Origin: Clostridium sp. 'deep sea' | GTDB taxonomy: Bacteria; Bacillota; UBA994; PWPR01 | DNA length: 64,000 nt | Assembly: GCF_014931565.1 (NCBI RefSeq) | Contig: NZ_CP063353.1 | Location: 372,001-436,000 of the forward strand | Direction of reading: 5' to 3' | In this document: one piece after another, positions 3,639 to 63,637 of the stretch | Layout of the letters: every line of letters begins with the position of its first letter | Numbering within the stretch: the stretch's first letter is position 1 | The notes under the pieces: generated by a model | What the model was told of the DNA's origin: nothing | The model's input: the letters and a program-made list of their open reading frames with translations, nothing else | The model's database searches: none | Program-made: the position numbers and the translations under genes

Positions 3639-5753
3639 ATGACAGAGTTTATTAAAGATGTAAAAAGAATATTTAATAAATATTTTTTAAGAAAACCCAA
3701 TGTTCAGCGGCTGTTGTTGGGCTTTATAACCTATGTAATAATTCTGTCTACATTAATATTATCTGTTGTTCCTGCTGAGGTAAACATTAATATTGGACAA
3801 GTTAGTTCCCGTACAATTTATGCACCAATTACTTTTGAAGATGAAATTGCTACTGAAAAAGCTCGTAATCAAGCAGAGCTACGTGTTAATGATCAGTATG
3901 TGCGTGATCGTAATTTAGAGCAACAGGTTTACGATAATATGGCAACAATAGGATCATTAATTATTGAAAATAAAAGTTTAAGTATAAAAGATTTAAGATC
4001 AGCCTTAATTGAAAAATTACCAGATGATATAGACTCAAAAACAGATATAATTTCGGACAATACGCTTTATTATATAGTAGGACTAGAAGCAGATTATATA
4101 AATGAGTTAAATGATGCTGCTCAAAATGTGTTAAGTGAGGTTTATAAAGAAACCATAATAACAGCTGAGAGTGGATTAGCTTTAATCCAGCATAATGTAA
4201 CCCAGTTAAGTTATACAATACCTGAAAAAATATATGTAGAAAGTCTTGTAAAATCAGTTTTTCAACCGAGTTCAGCTTATAGTGAAGCTAAAACAGCTGC
4301 TCAAAAAAAAGAAGCAAGACAAAATGTAGCACCAGTTATGATTCATAAAGGGGATGTGCTTGTTACTAAAGATCAAGTTATAACTGATCAAATATACTCG
4401 TATTTAGAGAAATCTGGCTTACTGAGCAATATGCGCAGAACCCAAATGGTTTTGGGTGTGACAATTTATTTGTTGCTTATATTTATTGTTGTTGTAGCAC
4501 TTCTTAAAATATTCTGCAAATCAGTCTTTAATAAAGTGATTTCGTTATTAATGTTAGCACTCATTATGATAGTTTGTGTACTAATTACAACAGTAATAGT
4601 TCCGTTTTCACCTCTATTTGTGGTTAGTGTAACTGTTGGAGTATTAATTACTGCCTTATTAGATTGGCAGGCTGCCTTAATCTCTGTATTAGCATATAAC
4701 TTTATAATAGCACCCATGATCATAGATACTTCTTACGCCTTAATAATATCCCTAATTACTGGTGTAACATCTATTGTAAGTAGTTATAAAATGAGTCAGA
4801 GAGCAGATATGATTAAGGTTGCTTTATATGTAGCTGCAATTAGTGGTTCTACAGTAGTTGCAAGTAACTTAATAATTGGTTCGGAGCTAAGTGTAGTTGC
4901 AAACTCTGCGTTATTAATAATTCTTAGTAGTATAGCTATGGTAATTATAGCTATTGGTTCTTTGCCATTGTTAGAAAATACTTTTGGCATTATTTCTACG
5001 ATAAGACTGCTCGAATTATCTAACCCCAACAGACCTTTATTGCGAAAACTATTATTAGAAGCACCAGGTACCTATAATCACAGTATAGTTATGGGTAACT
5101 TAGCTGAGGCAGCTGCCGAGGCTGTTGGTGCTGATCCATTACTTGCTAGAGTTGGCGCATACTATCATGATATTGGTAAGCTTAAACGTCCAGGTTTTTT
5201 TGTTGAAAATCAATTAGATGGAAATAATCCGCATGACAAATATACACCATCACTAAGTGCCTTAGTTATTATGTCTCATGTTAAAGATGGCGTTGAACTA
5301 GCTAAAGAAGAAAAACTTCCTGAGCAGGTTATTGATATGATTAAACAACATCATGGTACAACATTAGTAAGTTATTTTTATCATAAAGCAGTTAACCAAA
5401 ACGAAAGTGAAGATAGTATTAGGGAAGCAGATTATAAATATGATGGACCTCGCCCTCAAACTAAAGAGGCTGGGATCATTATGTTGTCTGATGCAATTGA
5501 AGCTGCTGTAAGGTCACTTAAGCGTCGATCACCAGCTAAAGTAGAAGAGGTTGTTAGAAAGATAATAAAATCTCGTTTACAAGATGGAGAATTAGACGAG
5601 TGTGACTTAACCATGAGAGATTTAGAAAAGTTAGCTGAAACATATATAAGAGTTCTTTCAGGGGTTTATCACAATAGAATCGCCTACCCAGAAAGAAGTA
5701 TAGCTGACCTCGAAAGGAGTAAAAAACTTGGTAGAAATTCAAATATTAAATAA
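3639..5753 (+). CDS. pgpH: PgpH/YqfF-type 7TM-HD c-di-AMP phosphodiesterase
   Basis: 704-residue membrane protein of the 7TMR-HD family. One N-terminal membrane segment (about 24-45) is followed by an exported domain (about 50-265), a block of hydrophobic helices (about 275-460), and a cytoplasmic HD domain with the metal-binding HDIGK near residue 510 and further His residues (MSHVKDG, KQHHGTT). PgpH hydrolyses c-di-AMP to pApA in Listeria and Bacillus. The last 26 bases overlap ybeY. Position between phoH and ybeY is the standard one. Confidence 0.93.
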   Translation: MTEFIKDVKRIFNKYFLRKPNVQRLLLGFITYVIILSTLILSVVPAEVNINIGQVSSRTIYAPITFEDEIATEKARNQAELRVNDQYVRDRNLEQQVYDNMATIGSLIIENKSLSIKDLRSALIEKLPDDIDSKTDIISDNTLYYIVGLEADYINELNDAAQNVLSEVYKETIITAESGLALIQHNVTQLSYTIPEKIYVESLVKSVFQPSSAYSEAKTAAQKKEARQNVAPVMIHKGDVLVTKDQVITDQIYSYLEKSGLLSNMRRTQMVLGVTIYLLLIFIVVVALLKIFCKSVFNKVISLLMLALIMIVCVLITTVIVPFSPLFVVSVTVGVLITALLDWQAALISVLAYNFIIAPMIIDTSYALIISLITGVTSIVSSYKMSQRADMIKVALYVAAISGSTVVASNLIIGSELSVVANSALLIILSSIAMVIIAIGSLPLLENTFGIISTIRLLELSNPNRPLLRKLLLEAPGTYNHSIVMGNLAEAAAEAVGADPLLARVGAYYHDIGKLKRPGFFVENQLDGNNPHDKYTPSLSALVIMSHVKDGVELAKEEKLPEQVIDMIKQHHGTTLVSYFYHKAVNQNESEDSIREADYKYDGPRPQTKEAGIIMLSDAIEAAVRSLKRRSPAKVEEVVRKIIKSRLQDGELDECDLTMRDLEKLAETYIRVLSGVYHNRIAYPERSIADLERSKKLGRNSNIK

Positions 5754-55480: not shown

Positions 55481-55757
55481 CGGGGTGGATATTTCACTTT
55501 GTGAAATATGGGGTGGACTCGCCTTTGGCATCGTGGGGTGGGTAGTTGATAAGTCAACTACGGGGTGGGTTCGCCTTGCTCACGGACTTTATGCTCGCTA
55601 TCGCGTCGCAATTATCACGTAAACAAAGTGATACGTTGCAAAGCAAATCCCCACCGCGCGAACGGGTGAGCCCAAACCGTTTTGCCCTAACAAACCCACC
55701 CCACGAAGATTTTAAGCGAGTCCAACCCAGAATTGCCTGCAATTATCCACACCAAAA
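55481..55757. repeat. Modular GC-rich repeat array, copy B (left flank of accessory island)
   Basis: GGGGTGG delimiters at 55482, 55510, 55535 and 55562 (every 25-28 bases) alternate with words ATATTTCACTTTGTGAAAT, ACTCGCCTTTGGCATCGT, TAGTTGATAAGTCAACTA and TTCGCCTTGCTCACGG. The right part carries complementary delimiters and, at 55666-55706, 41 bases identical to 63547-63587 in copy C. Small ORFs called here on both strands are spurious. Confidence 0.85.
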
Positions 55758-56345: not shown

Positions 56346-56471
56346 GTTCTCCACAAGTTCTTAGTTTATACCCAATCGATGTTTGGGCATATAAAGTATT
56401 AATGAAATAATAATCTCTAATTATTAAAATAATATTATTCTAATATTTTTTAATATTACTGTTATATTTAT

Positions 56472-56511
56472 GCACATTTTTCTTTTCTTTTTGCCTTTTT
56501 AATATTAGATA
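56472..56511 (+). promoter_or_regulatory. Promoter-like box before the split-sigma operon
   Basis: GCACATTTT at 56472 with CTTTTTAA 23 bases and TATTAG 31 bases downstream of its start; the same elements at the same distances precede the M23 gene (57359). Ends about 80 bases before the sigma gene. Confidence 0.55.
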
Positions 56512-56588
56512 GTTTATTTTTAGTTGAGCTATAAATTTAGATCTCTGTATTTACATATTAAAATTAACTAATAATTTAATTTAAGGAA

Positions 56589-56999
56589 GTGATTTTTATA
56601 TTAGTTACAGACAGACAATTCTTGAGTTATATAAAGATATGCTTAAAGGGCAAAACTATTCGTTTTAAAAAACATATTAATGATTATTACTCTAAAGAGC
56701 TTTTAATTTTAAACTCTAAAGTGGAAAAAGAAGCTTTTGAAATATTAGAATTATTACCTGATGAATCAATACAAGATTTTTTTTATTGCTTTAGCAAAGA
56801 AATACTGCATAAATTTCTTAAAAACATACTATCTACCAGAGAACATAAAGTCATTACCCTAACAGTAATTGAGAATAGAACAGATGAATCAGTAGGAGGT
56901 AGTTTAAATATTTCTCGATCTACAGTATCTAGAGTACGTAAAAAAGCTTTGAATAAGATCAAGATAAATCTTAAAAAAGGAGGTATGTTTTGTGGATGA
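56589..56999 (+). CDS. Sigma-70 region 4-like DNA-binding protein (SigO-type half sigma)
   Basis: Up to 136 residues. The C-terminal 45 residues form a sigma region 4 helix-turn-helix (STREHKVITLTVIENR, then SVGGSLNISRSTVSRVRKKA); the N-terminal part is basic and helical, with no recognisable region 2. This is the layout of SigO (YvrI) in Bacillus, which works with RsoA. GTG 56589 lies inside the ribosome site AAGGAAGTGAT; an ATA at 56598 is better spaced and may be the true start. The YvrJ gene overlaps its end by 8 bases and the region 2-like gene follows. Confidence 0.7.
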   Translation: MIFILVTDRQFLSYIKICLKGKTIRFKKHINDYYSKELLILNSKVEKEAFEILELLPDESIQDFFYCFSKEILHKFLKNILSTREHKVITLTVIENRTDESVGGSLNISRSTVSRVRKKALNKIKINLKKGGMFCG

Positions 57000-57150
57000 A
57001 ATGTTAAAGTCAATAGGTAATTTTGGATTTCCTATTGTAATAACTATCTACTTATTAGTACGAATTGAAGGTAAACTTGAGCAATTAAGGTTATCTCTAC
57101 TTGAGCTAACAGAGAGTATTAGAGATCTAAAATATCTTAAGGTTGATTAA
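56992..57150 (+). CDS. yvrJ: YvrJ family protein (holin-like single-span peptide)
   Basis: 52-residue peptide starting at GTG 56992 behind AAAAAGGAGGT: MDEMLKSIGNFGFPIVITIY, one membrane helix (about 8-25), then a charged helix (RIEGKLEQLRLSLLELTESI). This matches the YvrJ family (GFPIxVxxYLLxRxE). The architecture also resembles BhlA/UviB bacteriocin-linked holins. It overlaps the sigma gene by 8 bases and ends one base before the region 2-like gene, so all three are one operon. In Bacillus yvrJ lies next to sigO-rsoA. Confidence 0.78.
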   Translation: MDEMLKSIGNFGFPIVITIYLLVRIEGKLEQLRLSLLELTESIRDLKYLKVD

Positions 57151-57151
57151 T

Positions 57152-57346
57152 ATGAAATTCACTGAACTTATAGAAGAAATTCAAGTCACAGACAATGAAG
57201 TTGCATGGCAAAAAATGCTTGATAAATTAGAACCTTTAATTAATTCTCTCTCAAGATATGTCCCCTCACAATATCGTGATGACCTAAGACAAGTACTCTA
57301 TATAGAAGTAATAAGAGTTGTTAGAAGCTTTAAACTTGAAAAATAA
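57152..57346 (+). CDS. Sigma region 2-like small protein (RsoA-type)
   Basis: 64 residues: helix LIEEIQVTDNEVAWQKMLDK, then LEPLINSLSRYVPSQYRDDL and RQVLYIEVIRVVRSFKLEK. The string PLIxxxSRYxxxxxxDDLxQxxxIxxIRxVxxF follows sigma factor region 2.1-2.2 (PLI...R...EDLxQE...F), which binds the beta' clamp helices; DNA-melting region 2.3-2.4 is missing. This is what RsoA provides for SigO in Bacillus. I choose ATG 57152 over an upstream in-frame TTG. Short length and weak ribosome site lower the certainty. Confidence 0.68.
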   Translation: MKFTELIEEIQVTDNEVAWQKMLDKLEPLINSLSRYVPSQYRDDLRQVLYIEVIRVVRSFKLEK

Positions 57347-57358
57347 ATATTAAAATTT

Positions 57359-57398
57359 GCACGTTTTGTTGTTGACGATGTCTTTTAAGTAATAGAAA
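57359..57398 (+). promoter_or_regulatory. Promoter-like box before the M23 gene
   Basis: GCACGTTTTG at 57359-57368, CTTTTAA at 57382 and TAATAGAAAG at 57390; distances of 23 and 31 bases equal those at 56472. Matches at 14 of 18 positions over the downstream block. Confidence 0.55.
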
Positions 57399-57435
57399 GC
57401 TAGTTTTCAAAATAAATACTAAGGAGATGTTATTT

Positions 57436-58275
57436 ATGGCATTACAATTAAGTTACGGTGTTCGGTTTATGGATCAGAAGGCAGTTAACGATCTTATTAA
57501 TTGTGGGTTTATACCACAAAATGTTGGAGAAGTTATTAATGGTAACATAACTATGAGATCATATACCTATTTTACACCGTATTATCCTCTAGATGATACT
57601 GCTTATGTTAATAATGATAATGGACAATTAAGTTATATAGGAAATTGGGTTAGGACAGATATTGCGAATGCAAACCCTATAGGTCCTAGGGAGTATTATT
57701 TACATCCACCGGTTGCATTTGAGGATATTAAAAACTATAATTGTGTAGAAACGGCAGGATATCCAAAATATCCAAGGGGAAGTCGTCATAAAGGAGTAGA
57801 TTGGGCGAACGGAATCTATAACCTAAATATTGATGTATGTGCAGTTGATTACGGTAGAGTCTTAGAGGTACGAGATGGTTGTAATTGCAAATACTTTGAT
57901 AAAGATGGAGACGGAAAAAGAGATAATGTAGTTGGAACTAATTGTGGAACTACTTATCATTCTGGAGGTAATAAGGTACGTATAATGCTAAATGATGGTA
58001 CTATAGTTGACTATATGCATCTAAAAGAGAATTCCATATGTGTTGTTAAGGATGATTATGTTAACCCAGGTGATAAAATTGGTGTTTTAGGTACTACTGG
58101 AAGAAGTACCGGACTACATCTGCATTTTCAAAGAAACAATGCGAATGATGATCCAATATCCCCATACAAACATCTCATAATGTTTTACGATATAAATGAA
58201 AATATAGAACCAAACTGGAAGATTGCTAAGCAATCGGGAAAAACCTATACCCTTAATCAACTTCTATTACTTTAA
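57436..58275 (+). CDS. M23 (LytM-type) metallo-endopeptidase without signal peptide
   Basis: 279-residue protein. The C-terminal two thirds form an M23 peptidase: zinc ligands H118 and D122 in SRHKGVDWA, H195 in DYMHL, and H228/H230 in TGLHLHFQ. Such enzymes cut peptidoglycan cross-bridges. A calcium-loop-like DKDGDGKRD (155-163) and several Cys are inserted in the domain. The N-terminal 100 residues are not recognised, and there is no signal peptide or membrane helix, so export would need another route. ATG 57436 has AAGGAGAT eight bases upstream. It has the same promoter-like box as the split-sigma operon. A decayed IS follows its stop by about 24 bases. Confidence 0.85.
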   Translation: MALQLSYGVRFMDQKAVNDLINCGFIPQNVGEVINGNITMRSYTYFTPYYPLDDTAYVNNDNGQLSYIGNWVRTDIANANPIGPREYYLHPPVAFEDIKNYNCVETAGYPKYPRGSRHKGVDWANGIYNLNIDVCAVDYGRVLEVRDGCNCKYFDKDGDGKRDNVVGTNCGTTYHSGGNKVRIMLNDGTIVDYMHLKENSICVVKDDYVNPGDKIGVLGTTGRSTGLHLHFQRNNANDDPISPYKHLIMFYDINENIEPNWKIAKQSGKTYTLNQLLLL

Positions 58276-58299: not shown

Positions 58300-59489
58300 T
58301 GAACCATAATAAGTAGACACAGAAAAAGAGTCACTAGGCATGATTTCTATATTCATTAGGAGTCATGCCATTTAATTTTAATTGAGGTCTATCACAATTA
58401 TAAAACTCAATATAATGATTTACCCTTGAAACCAAATCATCTTGACAAGAAGGAATGCAAAACTTAAGATCTTCAGATTTCATGTGTGAAAAGAAAATTT
58501 CACAAGGTGAATTATCTAAACAATTACCCTTACGAGAATTACTAGGGATCAGCTTATTATTAGTGAGTAGTATTTAAATTTCTTAAGAGTGTGTTGATAG
58601 CCCTAATCAGGATGAAGAATAGCTCCAGCAAGAACATTTCCGAATTTATCAATCAACATATTCATGTATCAAAAAGTAATTTATAGTTGTTAAATTAGAG
58701 ATATTATATGCTAAAATTGAATTATTATAAAGGTCTTTAATAACGCTAAGATATAATCGACCACTTTTGTGGTATATATAGCTAATATCAGTAACAATTT
58801 TTGTAATGGTGAACAAGCTCTAAAATCTCTGGTTAAGAATGTTTGGTGAAACAATCTGTTTTTCTGTTCCTTATAAGGTGTCGTATATCGATACCTTTTT
58901 TTCTTATTAGTGATTTTAGTCCAAGGATTCTCATGTATTGATAAGTTGTTTTAGGGATAATTATTAGCCTATCCTTCCGTTTAAGTTGCATGGTCTATAA
59001 CAGATCTTTTGGCCATTTATTAAAGATTTCTTTTATAAGATCTACAACATTAAGATAAAAACATAGAGCTTTTATAGAGTATTTGTCCAATGCATGAATT
59101 ATAGAGATTTAAGGAAATGGTATGTGATATTCTGAAAAAGTATCATGCTTCTAAGACAACTAGGATAGCTATAAGGGATCTCTTAGTCTCATGCTTTTAT
59201 AACTTATTGTCTTGGGTCTACCCGGAGATTTAATACCTTCGTTTTTCTAATAGAAAATATGTTCCTCCAAATTCTTATAGCTGATTTTTTCATACTGGTC
59301 GGTTATTCTGTACATTAAATTTTATAGCTACTGCTCTATAACTAGCATACTCTCTACTTAAATATGCTTTGGTAATTTATTTTTTCAACTCTTGTGTGTA
59401 AATCGTGTATTTCTGCTCTCTAATATAAAAATCTCCTAAAGTAATTTTACCACGACTCTTTTTTCACCGTATCTATTTTCGGAGGTTCA
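58300..59489 (-). mobile_element. Decayed IS3-family (IS150-type) insertion sequence
   Basis: About 1.19 kb between imperfect inverted ends (TGAACC...GAAAAAGAGTC at 58300 and its counterpart ending GGTTCA at 59489). The minus strand reads, in broken frames, as the C-terminal integrase of an IS150-type OrfB: SRKGNCLDNSPCEIFFSHMK, then SEDLKFCIPSCQDDLVSRV, NHYIEFYNCDRPQLKLNG and MTPNEYRNHA. Many stops and frameshifts throughout mean it cannot transpose by itself. No clear target duplication. Confidence 0.8.
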
Positions 59490-59635: not shown

Positions 59636-61462
59636 ATGAAAAACCATATTACAAGTTCAATTATATTTGTTATTTTAATTATATCGCTACTTACAGCCTG
59701 CCAACCAAGCATAGAATCTCAACTACAAACCATGGGCTATCAATATAACAAAGAAAGCTTTTTTAAGAGTATTAAGCAATGCGATATAGGAGCAGTTAAG
59801 TTATTTATCGAAGATGGATTTGATGTAAACATTTTTGATTCTAAGAATAAAAGTCTTCTTTACTATGCTGTAGATTCTGAATCAGAAGAGATTGTTAATT
59901 TACTAATTGAAAATGGTGCTAATATAAATTCATCAGACTGCCCTTTGGAAGCAGCTTGTAAAAGAATTAATTTAACAATAGTAAAACTATTGTTGAATAA
60001 TGGAGCTAGGTTAGATTTATCACCTAAACCGTTAAATGCAATAATTACAAGAAATATTGCAATTGCTGAACTCCTTCTTAAAAATGGAGCTGACCCAAAT
60101 TATTTTTGTACACCAATGGCAATAGAGCTAGCTACTCAAGATAACTATACTGAAATGATTAAATTACTAATTAAGTACGGTGCAGAGTTAAATAATATTG
60201 CTAATCCGTTAAATGAAGCTATCCAAAAAAATAATATAAAAATAACAAAATTACTTTTAGATAGTGGAGCTGACCCGAATAATGCACTTAAAAAACTCCC
60301 TTTACAATCAGCAATTGATAACAATAATCTTGAGATATTTAATTTACTTGTTGAATATGGTGCCGATGTTAATAAAATTAAAAACTCTGGTTTTTACCAT
60401 AAAGATTTGTTTAATTTGGGCTACATGTTTAATGAAGATAATTATATTAAAAGCTTACATGATGGTAACTATGAAGCAATCAAACTGTTTTTAATTGAAG
60501 GATTTGACCCTAACTTAGAGATTAATTACGATAGATTTCCAATAATAGTTGCAACTGAAAAACAAAGAAAAGACTTAATAACATTACTGTTAGACTATGG
60601 GGCAAATATTAATATATGTGGGTTTTACTTAAATACAGCATTGTATGAAGCTGTTTCTTCTGAAAATATTGAAATAATTCAATACTTAATTGAGAAAGGG
60701 GCTAACCCAAGTGATGGTATTGCTTGCGCAGTTAGTAAAGATAATATTGATTTAGTAAAGTACTTTTTAAACTTAGGAGCTAACCCAAATGCAGGTTTCC
60801 CTGCATCTGCTTTTATAATTGCTACAGAAAAAGAAAACTATGAAATGATGGAGCTATTATTATTCAATGGAGCAGATATTGAAGACAAGGTTGAATCTAA
60901 TTATGCGAACTACTCTAGTGCTTTGGAAATCGCTACCTATAATAACAAATTGGAACTTGTACAATTTCTAGTTGAGAATGGGGCTAATTATGAAAGGTGC
61001 TTAACAAATGCTATTGCAGGAGAAGCAGTTGAAGCTTTTCATTACTTTATTCACTTTGGTGCAGACCCTAATAAGAGTGGTGATTTACCTCTCCCAATTT
61101 GTCAAACAGCCTGCATGGGTAATATTGAGTTCTTAGATATATTGCTTAAAAACGGAGCAGAAATAGATAAATATGCAACTAATGATCCTTATAGAACAAC
61201 AGCTATTAGTGAAGCAGCTAAAAATGATTATTTAGATATTGTTAAGTTTTTAGTAAAAAACGGTGCAGATATTCATAGAACAGATGCAGCTACCCCTTTA
61301 GTAACTGCTGCTGAAATGGGCAGAATAGAAGTCGTTAAATATCTTTTAGAACAAGGTGTAGACATTAATATTAAGAATCATTTAGGCAAAACAGCTCTAG
61401 AGGTCGCAAAATCGTATAGACAACAAGTAATGATTGATTTTCTAGAGTCTTATGCAAAATAA
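59636..61462 (+). CDS. Ankyrin-repeat lipoprotein 1
   Basis: 608-residue lipoprotein: signal peptide with lipobox LLTAC (Cys about residue 21), then about 18 ankyrin repeats (pattern A...N..IxxLLLxNGADxN). A capping motif LQTMGYQYNKESFFKSIKQC after the lipobox recurs as LGYMFNEDNYIKSLHDGNYE near residue 260, so the protein consists of two modules. Anchored on the outer face of the membrane it would bind other proteins; partner unknown. Nearly identical at its N-terminus to the next gene. Confidence 0.88.
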   Translation: MKNHITSSIIFVILIISLLTACQPSIESQLQTMGYQYNKESFFKSIKQCDIGAVKLFIEDGFDVNIFDSKNKSLLYYAVDSESEEIVNLLIENGANINSSDCPLEAACKRINLTIVKLLLNNGARLDLSPKPLNAIITRNIAIAELLLKNGADPNYFCTPMAIELATQDNYTEMIKLLIKYGAELNNIANPLNEAIQKNNIKITKLLLDSGADPNNALKKLPLQSAIDNNNLEIFNLLVEYGADVNKIKNSGFYHKDLFNLGYMFNEDNYIKSLHDGNYEAIKLFLIEGFDPNLEINYDRFPIIVATEKQRKDLITLLLDYGANINICGFYLNTALYEAVSSENIEIIQYLIEKGANPSDGIACAVSKDNIDLVKYFLNLGANPNAGFPASAFIIATEKENYEMMELLLFNGADIEDKVESNYANYSSALEIATYNNKLELVQFLVENGANYERCLTNAIAGEAVEAFHYFIHFGADPNKSGDLPLPICQTACMGNIEFLDILLKNGAEIDKYATNDPYRTTAISEAAKNDYLDIVKFLVKNGADIHRTDAATPLVTAAEMGRIEVVKYLLEQGVDINIKNHLGKTALEVAKSYRQQVMIDFLESYAK

Positions 61463-61472
61463 TTTTAGTTTG

Positions 61473-61495
61473 AGGAACGCATGCAATGCGTTCCC
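61473..61495 (+). terminator. Hairpin between the ankyrin genes
   Basis: Perfect stem GGAACGCAT / ATGCGTTCC with a GCA loop; no clear T-run, so a weak terminator or RNA-stability element. Confidence 0.5.
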
Positions 61496-61548
61496 ATAAT
61501 TTTAAAGAAATCATTTCTTTCACCAAATATCCTTAGGGTGGTTACATA

Positions 61549-63379
61549 ATGACATTACGTTTGTTTAAAATATTATCCTTAATTATTGTTACTCTTATCT
61601 TCATAGCCTGCCAACCAAGCATAGAATCTCAACTACAAACTATGGGTTATCAATATAACAAAGAAAGCTTTTTTAAGAGTATTAAGCAATGTGATATAGA
61701 AGCAGTCAAATTATTTATCGAAGATGGATTTATGAAAAAAATTACTAAAAACCAATGTACCTTAACAATTGCAATAAGTACAAAATCTACTGAGCTTATT
61801 AAGTTACTTATTGAAAATGGTGCTGATGTTAATTCATCGTCTAAACCTCTAGAAACTGCTATATCCTATGGTAATTTTTATGTTACTAAATTATTAGTCG
61901 ATAATGGTGCTGATATTTTACATAATGATAGGTGTTTATATAATGCAGTTAAAATAAATAATTATGATATTATTGAGTTTCTGCTTAAAAAAGGAGTAGA
62001 CCCAAACATAACAACTCAACCCATGCCCATAGAATTAGCTGTAAAAAATAATAATATTGAAATATTGAACCTACTATTAAAACACGATGCTAAATTGAAT
62101 GGCATTGCAAACCCTCTAATAATAGCTATTAGCAATAATAACCTAGAAATGATTACTATTAATTGACAAAGGTGTAGATATAAACAAAGGAGTAGATACA
62201 ACACCAATAGAATTGGCAATTGATAAAAATCACTTTGAAATAGTTAAACTTCTTTATAACAATGGAGCAGATATTAGTAGCATTAAAAACGAAGGGGTTT
62301 TTCATAGTAAAGCCTTAAAATTAGGATACAAATACAACAATGAAGGCTTTGAAAATAGTCTAAGAAATGGCGATTATGATGCTATCAGCTTTTTCCTAAG
62401 AGAGGGATTTGACTCTAATTTAAAATTTGATTTACATGATTATCCAATTACAATTATCGCAGAACACTGTGATACTAAACTGCTAAAACTACTACTTAAA
62501 AATGGTGCAGATATAAACTCTTTGGGTTTCTACGGTAACACTGCATTATCCACTGTGGTCCAAAAAAATAATACACAAATAGTAAATTTTTTAATTGAAA
62601 AAGGAGCGAATGTTAATCTTGGTTTTGGATTACCTTTAACTCTAGCGGTAGATAACAAAAATACTGAAATAGCTGAGATACTATTAAAACATGGAGCTGA
62701 CCCAAATAAAGGGTGGGAAGATTATCCTATTAACGATGCAACTGGTAATGAAGATTTGAGTATGATTAAATTATTATTGAAATATGGTGCCGATCTAAAT
62801 GTATCTAGTTATTCAGACTATAAGGGTTCTGGTGCATTAAACACAGCTGCTGCAACAGGAAACTTAAACCTAGTTAAGTTTTTAATCAATGAAGGTGCAG
62901 AATTAGATATGATGAGCTGTTTATCTTTATCTTTAGCAGCTAAGTCTGGCGCATTAGATATTGTTAAATATTTGATTTCACTTGATGCTCAAGTGAACAA
63001 TAATACAGTTTTTACTCCTTTGTATGCTGCAGCATATAGTGGTGAGTTAGATATAATACAAGTTCTTATCTCCTGTGGGGCTGATATAAACAAACCCTCT
63101 GGCGATGACCTAAAGACAACTCCCTTATGTATAGCTTCAAGATTTGGTCATCTTAATGTAGTTAAATACCTCATAGAACAAGGTGCAAAAGTAAACCTAC
63201 CTAGTTTAAATAGTCCACTTATATTTGCAACTGAAGAAAACCAAATAGAAGTAGTTGAATATCTATTAGATGCAGGTGCTGACATAACTAAAAAAAATAT
63301 TCAAGGAAAAACAGCCATAGATATTGCGACTAAAAAAGGTTTTAATGAAATAATGCTCTTAATTAAATCTCATAACTAA
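61549..63379 (+). pseudogene. Ankyrin-repeat lipoprotein 2, split by a frameshift
   Basis: Paralogue of the preceding gene with its own lipobox (LIFIAC) and repeats. The first frame runs 61549-62166 (205 residues) and stops after NNNLEMITIN; the second frame (62213-63379 by its first ATG, but in homology from about 62160, IDKGVDINKG) continues the repeats for 388 residues. Two bases appear lost near 62155 (ATTACTATTA where ATTAAACTATTA is expected). About 130 bases after the lipobox are almost identical to gene 1. Could be a recent pseudogene, a phase-variable state or a sequencing error. Confidence 0.8.
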
Positions 63380-63489: not shown

Positions 63490-63637
63490 CTACAAAGTGA
63501 AACGTATATTCAACCATTTGCAAAGCAAATCCCCACCGCGAACGAGGTGAGCCCAAACCGTTTTGCCCTAACAAACCCACCCCACGATGCCAAAGGCGAG
63601 TCCACCCCATAATTGCCTACAATTATCCAAACCAAAA
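63490..63637. repeat. Modular GC-rich repeat array, copy C (right flank of accessory island)
   Basis: Direct-orientation counterpart of the right half of copy B; 63547-63587 is identical to 55666-55706. It also contains, reversed, the unit between two GGGGTGG delimiters of copy B (ACTCGCCTTTGGCATCGT). ORFs called across it are spurious. Confidence 0.85.

Follow-up and report, generated by a model that had tools for sequence, protein, structure and literature searches.

Among described systems, those closest to the locus reported here combine a dedicated regulator, a small membrane protein and an enzyme or cargo. The clostridial modules UviA-UviB-amidase-Bcn5 and TcdR-TcdE bring together a sigma factor, a holin, and an amidase or cargo (PMC9527704). 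In Bacillus subtilis, yvrJ belongs to the SigO-RsoA regulon (PMC8103513), and beyond its listing as a target of this factor we found no function assigned to YvrJ in the literature. Type 10 secretion in Serratia and Salmonella relies on a holin and a wall hydrolase, and the signal-less hydrolase depends on the holin (PMC13284979).

The locus lies in the window, the whole 64,000-nucleotide stretch of Clostridium sp. 'deep sea' DNA that was analysed. We read it, with moderate confidence, as a domesticated phage-type holin/endolysin cassette on a bacterial chromosome with its own two-part sigma factor. Direct reading of the window finds four genes, all on the + strand, together with the following elements:

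56470..56504, + strand: two-block element resembling a promoter, ahead of the operon, ATGCACAT-N14-TGCCTTTTTAATA, 84 nt upstream of the annotated start
56589..56999, + strand: SigO-like half, a sigma region (3-)4 DNA-binding protein of up to 136 aa (Sigma70_r4, 5.6e-9)
56992..57150, + strand: YvrJ, 52 aa, with one short hydrophobic helix, holin-like (PF12841, 2.5e-18)
57152..57346, + strand: RsoA-like half, a protein of 64 aa (counted from the ATG) with sigma region 2 (HTH_16, 7.1e-5)
57357..57391, + strand: two-block element resembling a promoter, ahead of the M23 gene, TTGCACGT-N14-TGTCTTTTAAGTA
57436..58275, + strand: M23 endopeptidase without signal peptide, ~279 aa (Peptidase_M23, 3.5e-13)
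58334..58991, - strand: degraded IS3-type transposase (rve) fragments with interrupted frames, bounding the cassette (rve_2, 2.6e-9; rve, 0.003)

Our re-reading of the region agrees with the gene order, coordinates and spacing given in the earlier note. The yvrJ ORF overlaps the region 4 gene by 8 bases and a 1-base gap separates it from the region 2 gene, while the ATG of the M23 gene (57436) lies 89 bases past the region 2 stop codon and follows a correctly spaced Shine-Dalgarno sequence, AAGGAG. A longer M23 ORF starting at 57427 is possible, and the GTG start of the SigO-like half, which overlaps its own Shine-Dalgarno sequence, is uncertain. None of the identity matches of the window proteins was at chance level. 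The cassette region had no Rfam match, and a scan for the sigma-70 consensus returned a count equal to the shuffle mean. Downstream, at 59636-63379, lie genes for ankyrin-repeat proteins in duplicated and partly broken copies, one with a lipoprotein-like N terminus, and with a 127-nt block repeated at 95% identity. A GC-rich dispersed repeat, perhaps a MITE, flanks the cassette and the ankyrin genes at 55504-55706 and 63546-63614 (42 nt identical, and a 40-nt inverted match of 98%).

Sequence profiles and predicted structure identify a SigO/RsoA-type two-part sigma factor, in line with the earlier note: the 136-aa protein is its region 4 half and the 64-aa protein its region 2 half. In addition to the Pfam match of the larger protein, a profile of its region 4 family found sigma-28 in the PDB (1.9e-9). 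The HTH_16 match of the smaller protein reaches 23.3 bits against a Pfam cut-off of 22. Profile A1, built from five RsoA-like proteins of the 64-aa family, found sigma region 2 in the PDB (1l0o_C, 9.4e-5; 2map, 8.3e-4) and also matches region 2 of full-length sigma factors (180-290 aa) in most of the 398 genomes, across the phylum. The AlphaFold model of the 64-aa protein has a pLDDT of 92.5 and superposes in Foldseek on region 2 of SigE and SigB with TM-scores of 0.74-0.83 and a probability of 1.00; the E-values are weak, as expected, because only 64 residues are compared. We infer that the two halves bind each other.

Single window proteins used as phmmer queries missed every sig/RsoA relative, and these were reached only through HTH_16 genes adjoining yvrJ genes. 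The same sig-YvrJ-RsoA operon occurs in L107, L108, L109 and L111, and L213 (Lysinibacillus mangiferihumi), L178 and L180, the last a copy of L108, have it as well. In the Bacillales-type locus L170, whose RsoA matches the window 64-aa protein by BLAST (3e-6), sig-RsoA is divergent from YvrJ-OxdC-YvrL, with YvrL assigned by position and general appearance and without a profile. This gene order is that of B. subtilis.

Some of these loci have features of their own. L107 carries a second RsoA copy (4072-5052) with its own GGTTGAAA...TTAGTAGAA element, which precedes a 229-aa signal-less protein of no assigned family. In the GC-rich split-sigma locus L178 (801-1904), the downstream gene encodes a 368-aa signal-less protein that is rich in beta-type and Cys sequence and belongs to no Pfam family. 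In L077 (1492-2150), a Tn916-like element has genes for a region 4 and an HTH_16 protein, overlapping by 4 bases in a SigO/RsoA-like layout, with integrase and Xis-like genes alongside; Tn916-type Orf7/Orf8 may be a two-part sigma factor too.

The 52-residue peptide is a YvrJ, as the earlier note had proposed (65.8 bits against a PF12841 cut-off of 29.5), with a hydropathy peak at residues 7-23. The description 'holin-like' in the title of that note went beyond what the window alone shows. The match of the peptide to the PHROG_4898 'holin' is weak (1.6e-4), and homology between YvrJ and the BhlA holins (PF10960) is unsupported (hhalign probability 14.5%). As YvrJ is not demonstrably homologous to BhlA, 'works like a holin' is a functional claim only. 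A literature search found no report of holin activity for any YvrJ, and a text search of the literature naming YvrJ found none joining it with 'holin'.

We surveyed 142 occurrences of YvrJ, including the window. The downstream partners included Amidase_2 in 16 cases and one divergent case, M15 in five, Amidase_3 and NAGPA-like proteins in three each, GH24 in two, and OxdC and M23 in one each, the M23 being that of the window. Over 141 loci, wall-hydrolase families account for 32 of the 272 genes within 600 nt of yvrJ versus seven of the 1143 farther away (odds ratio 21.6, Fisher p 1e-17); the ratio and p-value are optimistic because the adjacent genes were part of the material for the HMMs and because related genomes were compared, but the direction of the association is clear. 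All 32 hydrolases are encoded on the strand of yvrJ and lack a hydrophobic segment at the N terminus. These counts and the phage loci described below support the part of the earlier note's interpretation in which YvrJ is a lysis-type partner of a signal-less wall hydrolase. The note's expectation that M23 adjoins yvrJ in relatives was not borne out: no other cellular locus of the survey has M23 beside YvrJ, and other signal-less wall enzymes are found there instead, while one viral contig has M23 two genes away. Rather than a conserved M23, YvrJ has an exchangeable partner enzyme (Amidase_2, Amidase_3, M15, GH24, NAGPA-like, OxdC). Many YvrJ loci are without an adjoining hydrolase; a ComK-like gene is present in 31 of the 142 and RecD2 in 11.

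Many Bacillota carry a cluster of DUF1659, DUF2922, YvrJ, sometimes a signal-less Amidase_2, and a ComK-like regulator (L045, L046, L051, L059, L060, L061, L125, L193, L200 and others). A recD2 or comF-like gene often adjoins it, and a full-length sigma factor is sometimes found upstream. A link of this cluster to competence or DNA release is possible.

Members of the YvrJ family are encoded beside endolysins in phages, as holins are. In Bacillus phage KonjoTrouble, gp33, annotated 'holin', sits between two endolysins (gp32-gp34) and is a YvrJ by Pfam, at a score just under the cut-off (1.3e-6, 28.3 bits). In the prophage-like loci L115, L116 and L126, YvrJ directly precedes GH24 or M15 enzymes, and in viral contigs L272-L274 it is followed by a ~110-aa membrane protein and then by Amidase_2 or M23.

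Other membrane proteins occupy the position of YvrJ beside some sigma halves. In L172, a 103-aa membrane protein that matches the PHROG_1299 holin (6.4e-4) is encoded together with RsoA, sig and an Rv2525c-type hydrolase that has no signal. Nearby are genes for another signal-less hydrolase of this type and for a PG_binding_1 protein without a signal; a similar element precedes each of these three enzyme or binding-protein genes, and a genome-wide search with the exact pattern returned two of these sites. In G034, RsoA, sig and BhlA lie downstream of a YkuD/LysM-looking protein. In L161 and L163, and similarly in L162, RsoA-sig is followed by a ~105-aa protein with three TM segments, which resembles a protein encoded between BhlA and Amidase_2 in the prophage-like L263.

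The window M23 protein is an endolysin-type hydrolase without an N-terminal signal or anchor. Its zinc-ligand motifs, HxxxD (RHKGVDW) and HLH, were read by eye and are intact, and its nearest solved relatives in a PDB profile search are lysostaphin (3e-9), LytM and zoocin A. The N-terminal part of ~110 aa has no assigned family. The protein was called signal-less on a hydropathy criterion: its maximum 17-residue hydropathy is 0.71 and it has no N-terminal hydrophobic segment, whereas three other M23 proteins examined from the same genome have N-terminal values of 2.6-3.1. Both the ligands and the missing signal peptide had been noted before, and ordinary signal peptides on M23 homologues had been named as counting against the proposal; the window enzyme is without one, unlike these three. 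Close relatives of it were not found in viral contigs. An AlphaFold model of M23 alone had a pLDDT of 35 and was set aside.

Computational evidence supports a promoter-like element common to the operon and the M23 gene, as would be expected if, as proposed earlier, the two-part sigma factor acts on both units. The two upstream regions have a 50-base ungapped match in common (p ~0.03 from shuffles), with two clear blocks, ATGCACAT/TTGCACGT and TGCCTTTTTAATA/TGTCTTTTAAGTA, 14 bases apart. Sixteen of the 21 block positions are identical, and the score is reached by none of 400 shuffles. Among 47 gene upstreams of the window, that of M23 scores best for the operon element; in a real-DNA null, the score of the M23 match was reached by 9 of 2785 window pieces. 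Searching the whole 3.83-Mb genome with up to three mismatches returned the operon and M23 sites as exact matches, which they are by construction as the pattern was drawn from them, and two poor others; a reversed-control pattern gave no match.

Comparable elements are found elsewhere. In L108, GGTTGTTA-N14-TGTCTTTTATATA is identical at all 21 positions before the sig-YvrJ-RsoA operon and the NAGPA-like enzyme, and with up to three mismatches it occurs at three sites in the 4.3-Mb genome, all within 6 kb. L107 has its own element common to the operon and the downstream enzyme (0/150 shuffles, 2/711 real-DNA pieces), as does L172 with its different membrane protein (0/150 and 0/711). L111, where Amidase_3 lies ~0.5 kb beyond sig-YvrJ-RsoA, has no common element (p 0.72). 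When six promoters were searched for a simple 13-base motif, 7 of 40 shuffles did as well, so that the result was not significant. A two-block EM model outscored each of 200 shuffles, but with the window sequences in another register; we therefore relied on the per-locus shuffle tests and real-DNA nulls.

A mechanism can be proposed on this basis. The region 4 and region 2 proteins would have to act together as a SigO/RsoA-type sigma factor, whose holoenzyme would recognise TGCAC.T-N14-TGYCTTTT.A.TA and drive transcription of its own operon, by autoregulation, as well as of the M23 gene. Also made from the operon would be YvrJ, a one-helix membrane peptide working like a small holin, through which the signal-less M23 enzyme would pass the membrane to cut the wall. 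The outcome could be lysis of some cells or wall opening in living ones. Gene association suggests this role for YvrJ, which on this reading would move the M23 enzyme.

Three other explanations bear on these observations. YvrJ might be a membrane regulator, an anti-sigma factor or tether of the split sigma, with the co-regulated M23 reaching its substrate by cell lysis or non-classical export. Anti-sigma genes often lie relative to sigma genes as yvrJ does here, between and overlapping the sigma halves, and the sig-YvrJ-RsoA pairing recurs in several families. We nevertheless regard this as unlikely, given that most YvrJ genes surveyed have no adjoining split sigma, that YvrJ adjoins endolysins in phages and prophages, and that a PHROG holin or BhlA replaces it beside some split-sigma pairs. 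Distinctly unlikely is a chance neighbourhood, in which the M23 gene would have come to lie downstream of a SigO-YvrJ-RsoA operon to which it is unrelated, in a region strewn with IS sequences. The adjoining IS3 remnant, the absence of YvrJ from the same-genus genome G001 and the lack of conservation of M23 at this position elsewhere would fit such an event; the promoter element common and unique to the operon and the M23 unit argues against it, as do L107 and L108, where operon and enzyme gene are arranged alike, the signal-less enzyme is a different one and each locus has a shared promoter of its own.

The enzyme could also be a lysostaphin- or zoocin-like bacteriolysin directed at competitors, with YvrJ as exporter and the two-part sigma as switch, in a bacteriocin cassette of the UviA-UviB-Bcn5 type. 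In favour of this, lysostaphin and zoocin A are the best matches of M23 among solved structures, different loci carry different enzymes, and signal-less clostridial bacteriocins occur alongside a sigma factor and a holin of the BhlA type (PMC9527704). However, no immunity gene is seen, partners elsewhere are mostly phage-type endolysins, OxdC and NAGPA-like proteins rather than bacteriocins, and the producer's own wall is an equally good target, which makes this explanation, too, rather improbable. Under the preferred reading of a domesticated holin/endolysin cassette, the outcomes may include lysis of part of the population, opening of the wall without lysis, as in type 10 secretion (PMC13284979), or release of a lysostaphin-like bacteriolysin.

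Taken across loci, a wider interpretation is conceivable, although we put it forward tentatively and think it less probable than not. Wall enzymes that are folded and lack a signal (phage-type amidases, M15, M23, GH-like, and OxdC in Bacillus) would be exported by a route widespread in bacteria, with YvrJ as its small holin and SigO/RsoA-type sigmas as its dedicated switch, and YvrJ, BhlA and the 3-TM PHROG holin would be interchangeable. For OxdC, a SigO target, the route to the cell wall appears to be unexplained; should YvrJ be a holin-like exporter, its own function and this route would both become directly testable in B. subtilis. If true, two-part sigmas would be switches of phage-derived lysis/export cassettes across Bacillota, in parallel to UviA/TcdR.

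The earlier note knew of no described system with these parts. As a general statement this is too strong, because UviA/UviB-Bcn5 modules, with a sigma factor, a BhlA-type holin and an amidase, have been described (PMC9527704), though with neither a split sigma nor YvrJ. Those modules and TcdR-TcdE resemble the window in having a dedicated sigma, a small holin and a signal-less wall enzyme or cargo; they use single-chain sigmas and BhlA/TcdE holins, whereas the window has a split sigma and YvrJ and no separate cargo is seen in its cassette. SigO-RsoA (YvrI-YvrHa) of B. subtilis likewise has regions 4 and 2 on separate proteins and yvrJ in its regulon (PMC8103513), but in the window yvrJ is inside the operon, the target is M23 and not OxdC, and YvrL is missing. 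Type 10 secretion also reuses a phage lysis cassette, though in Gram-negative bacteria, with spanins in Serratia and other regulators; the window has a holin-like peptide and hydrolase, with no cargo gene identified. In phage lysis cassettes with YvrJ (KonjoTrouble gp32-gp34, prophage-like L115 and L126), YvrJ similarly adjoins signal-less endolysins, but these lack sigma halves and are set in tail/lysis gene blocks. The cassette suggests a phage-derived route for getting wall enzymes out of the cell, and what it adds to the known systems is a split sigma, YvrJ as the putative holin-like part, an exchangeable signal-less enzyme and a predicted shared promoter.
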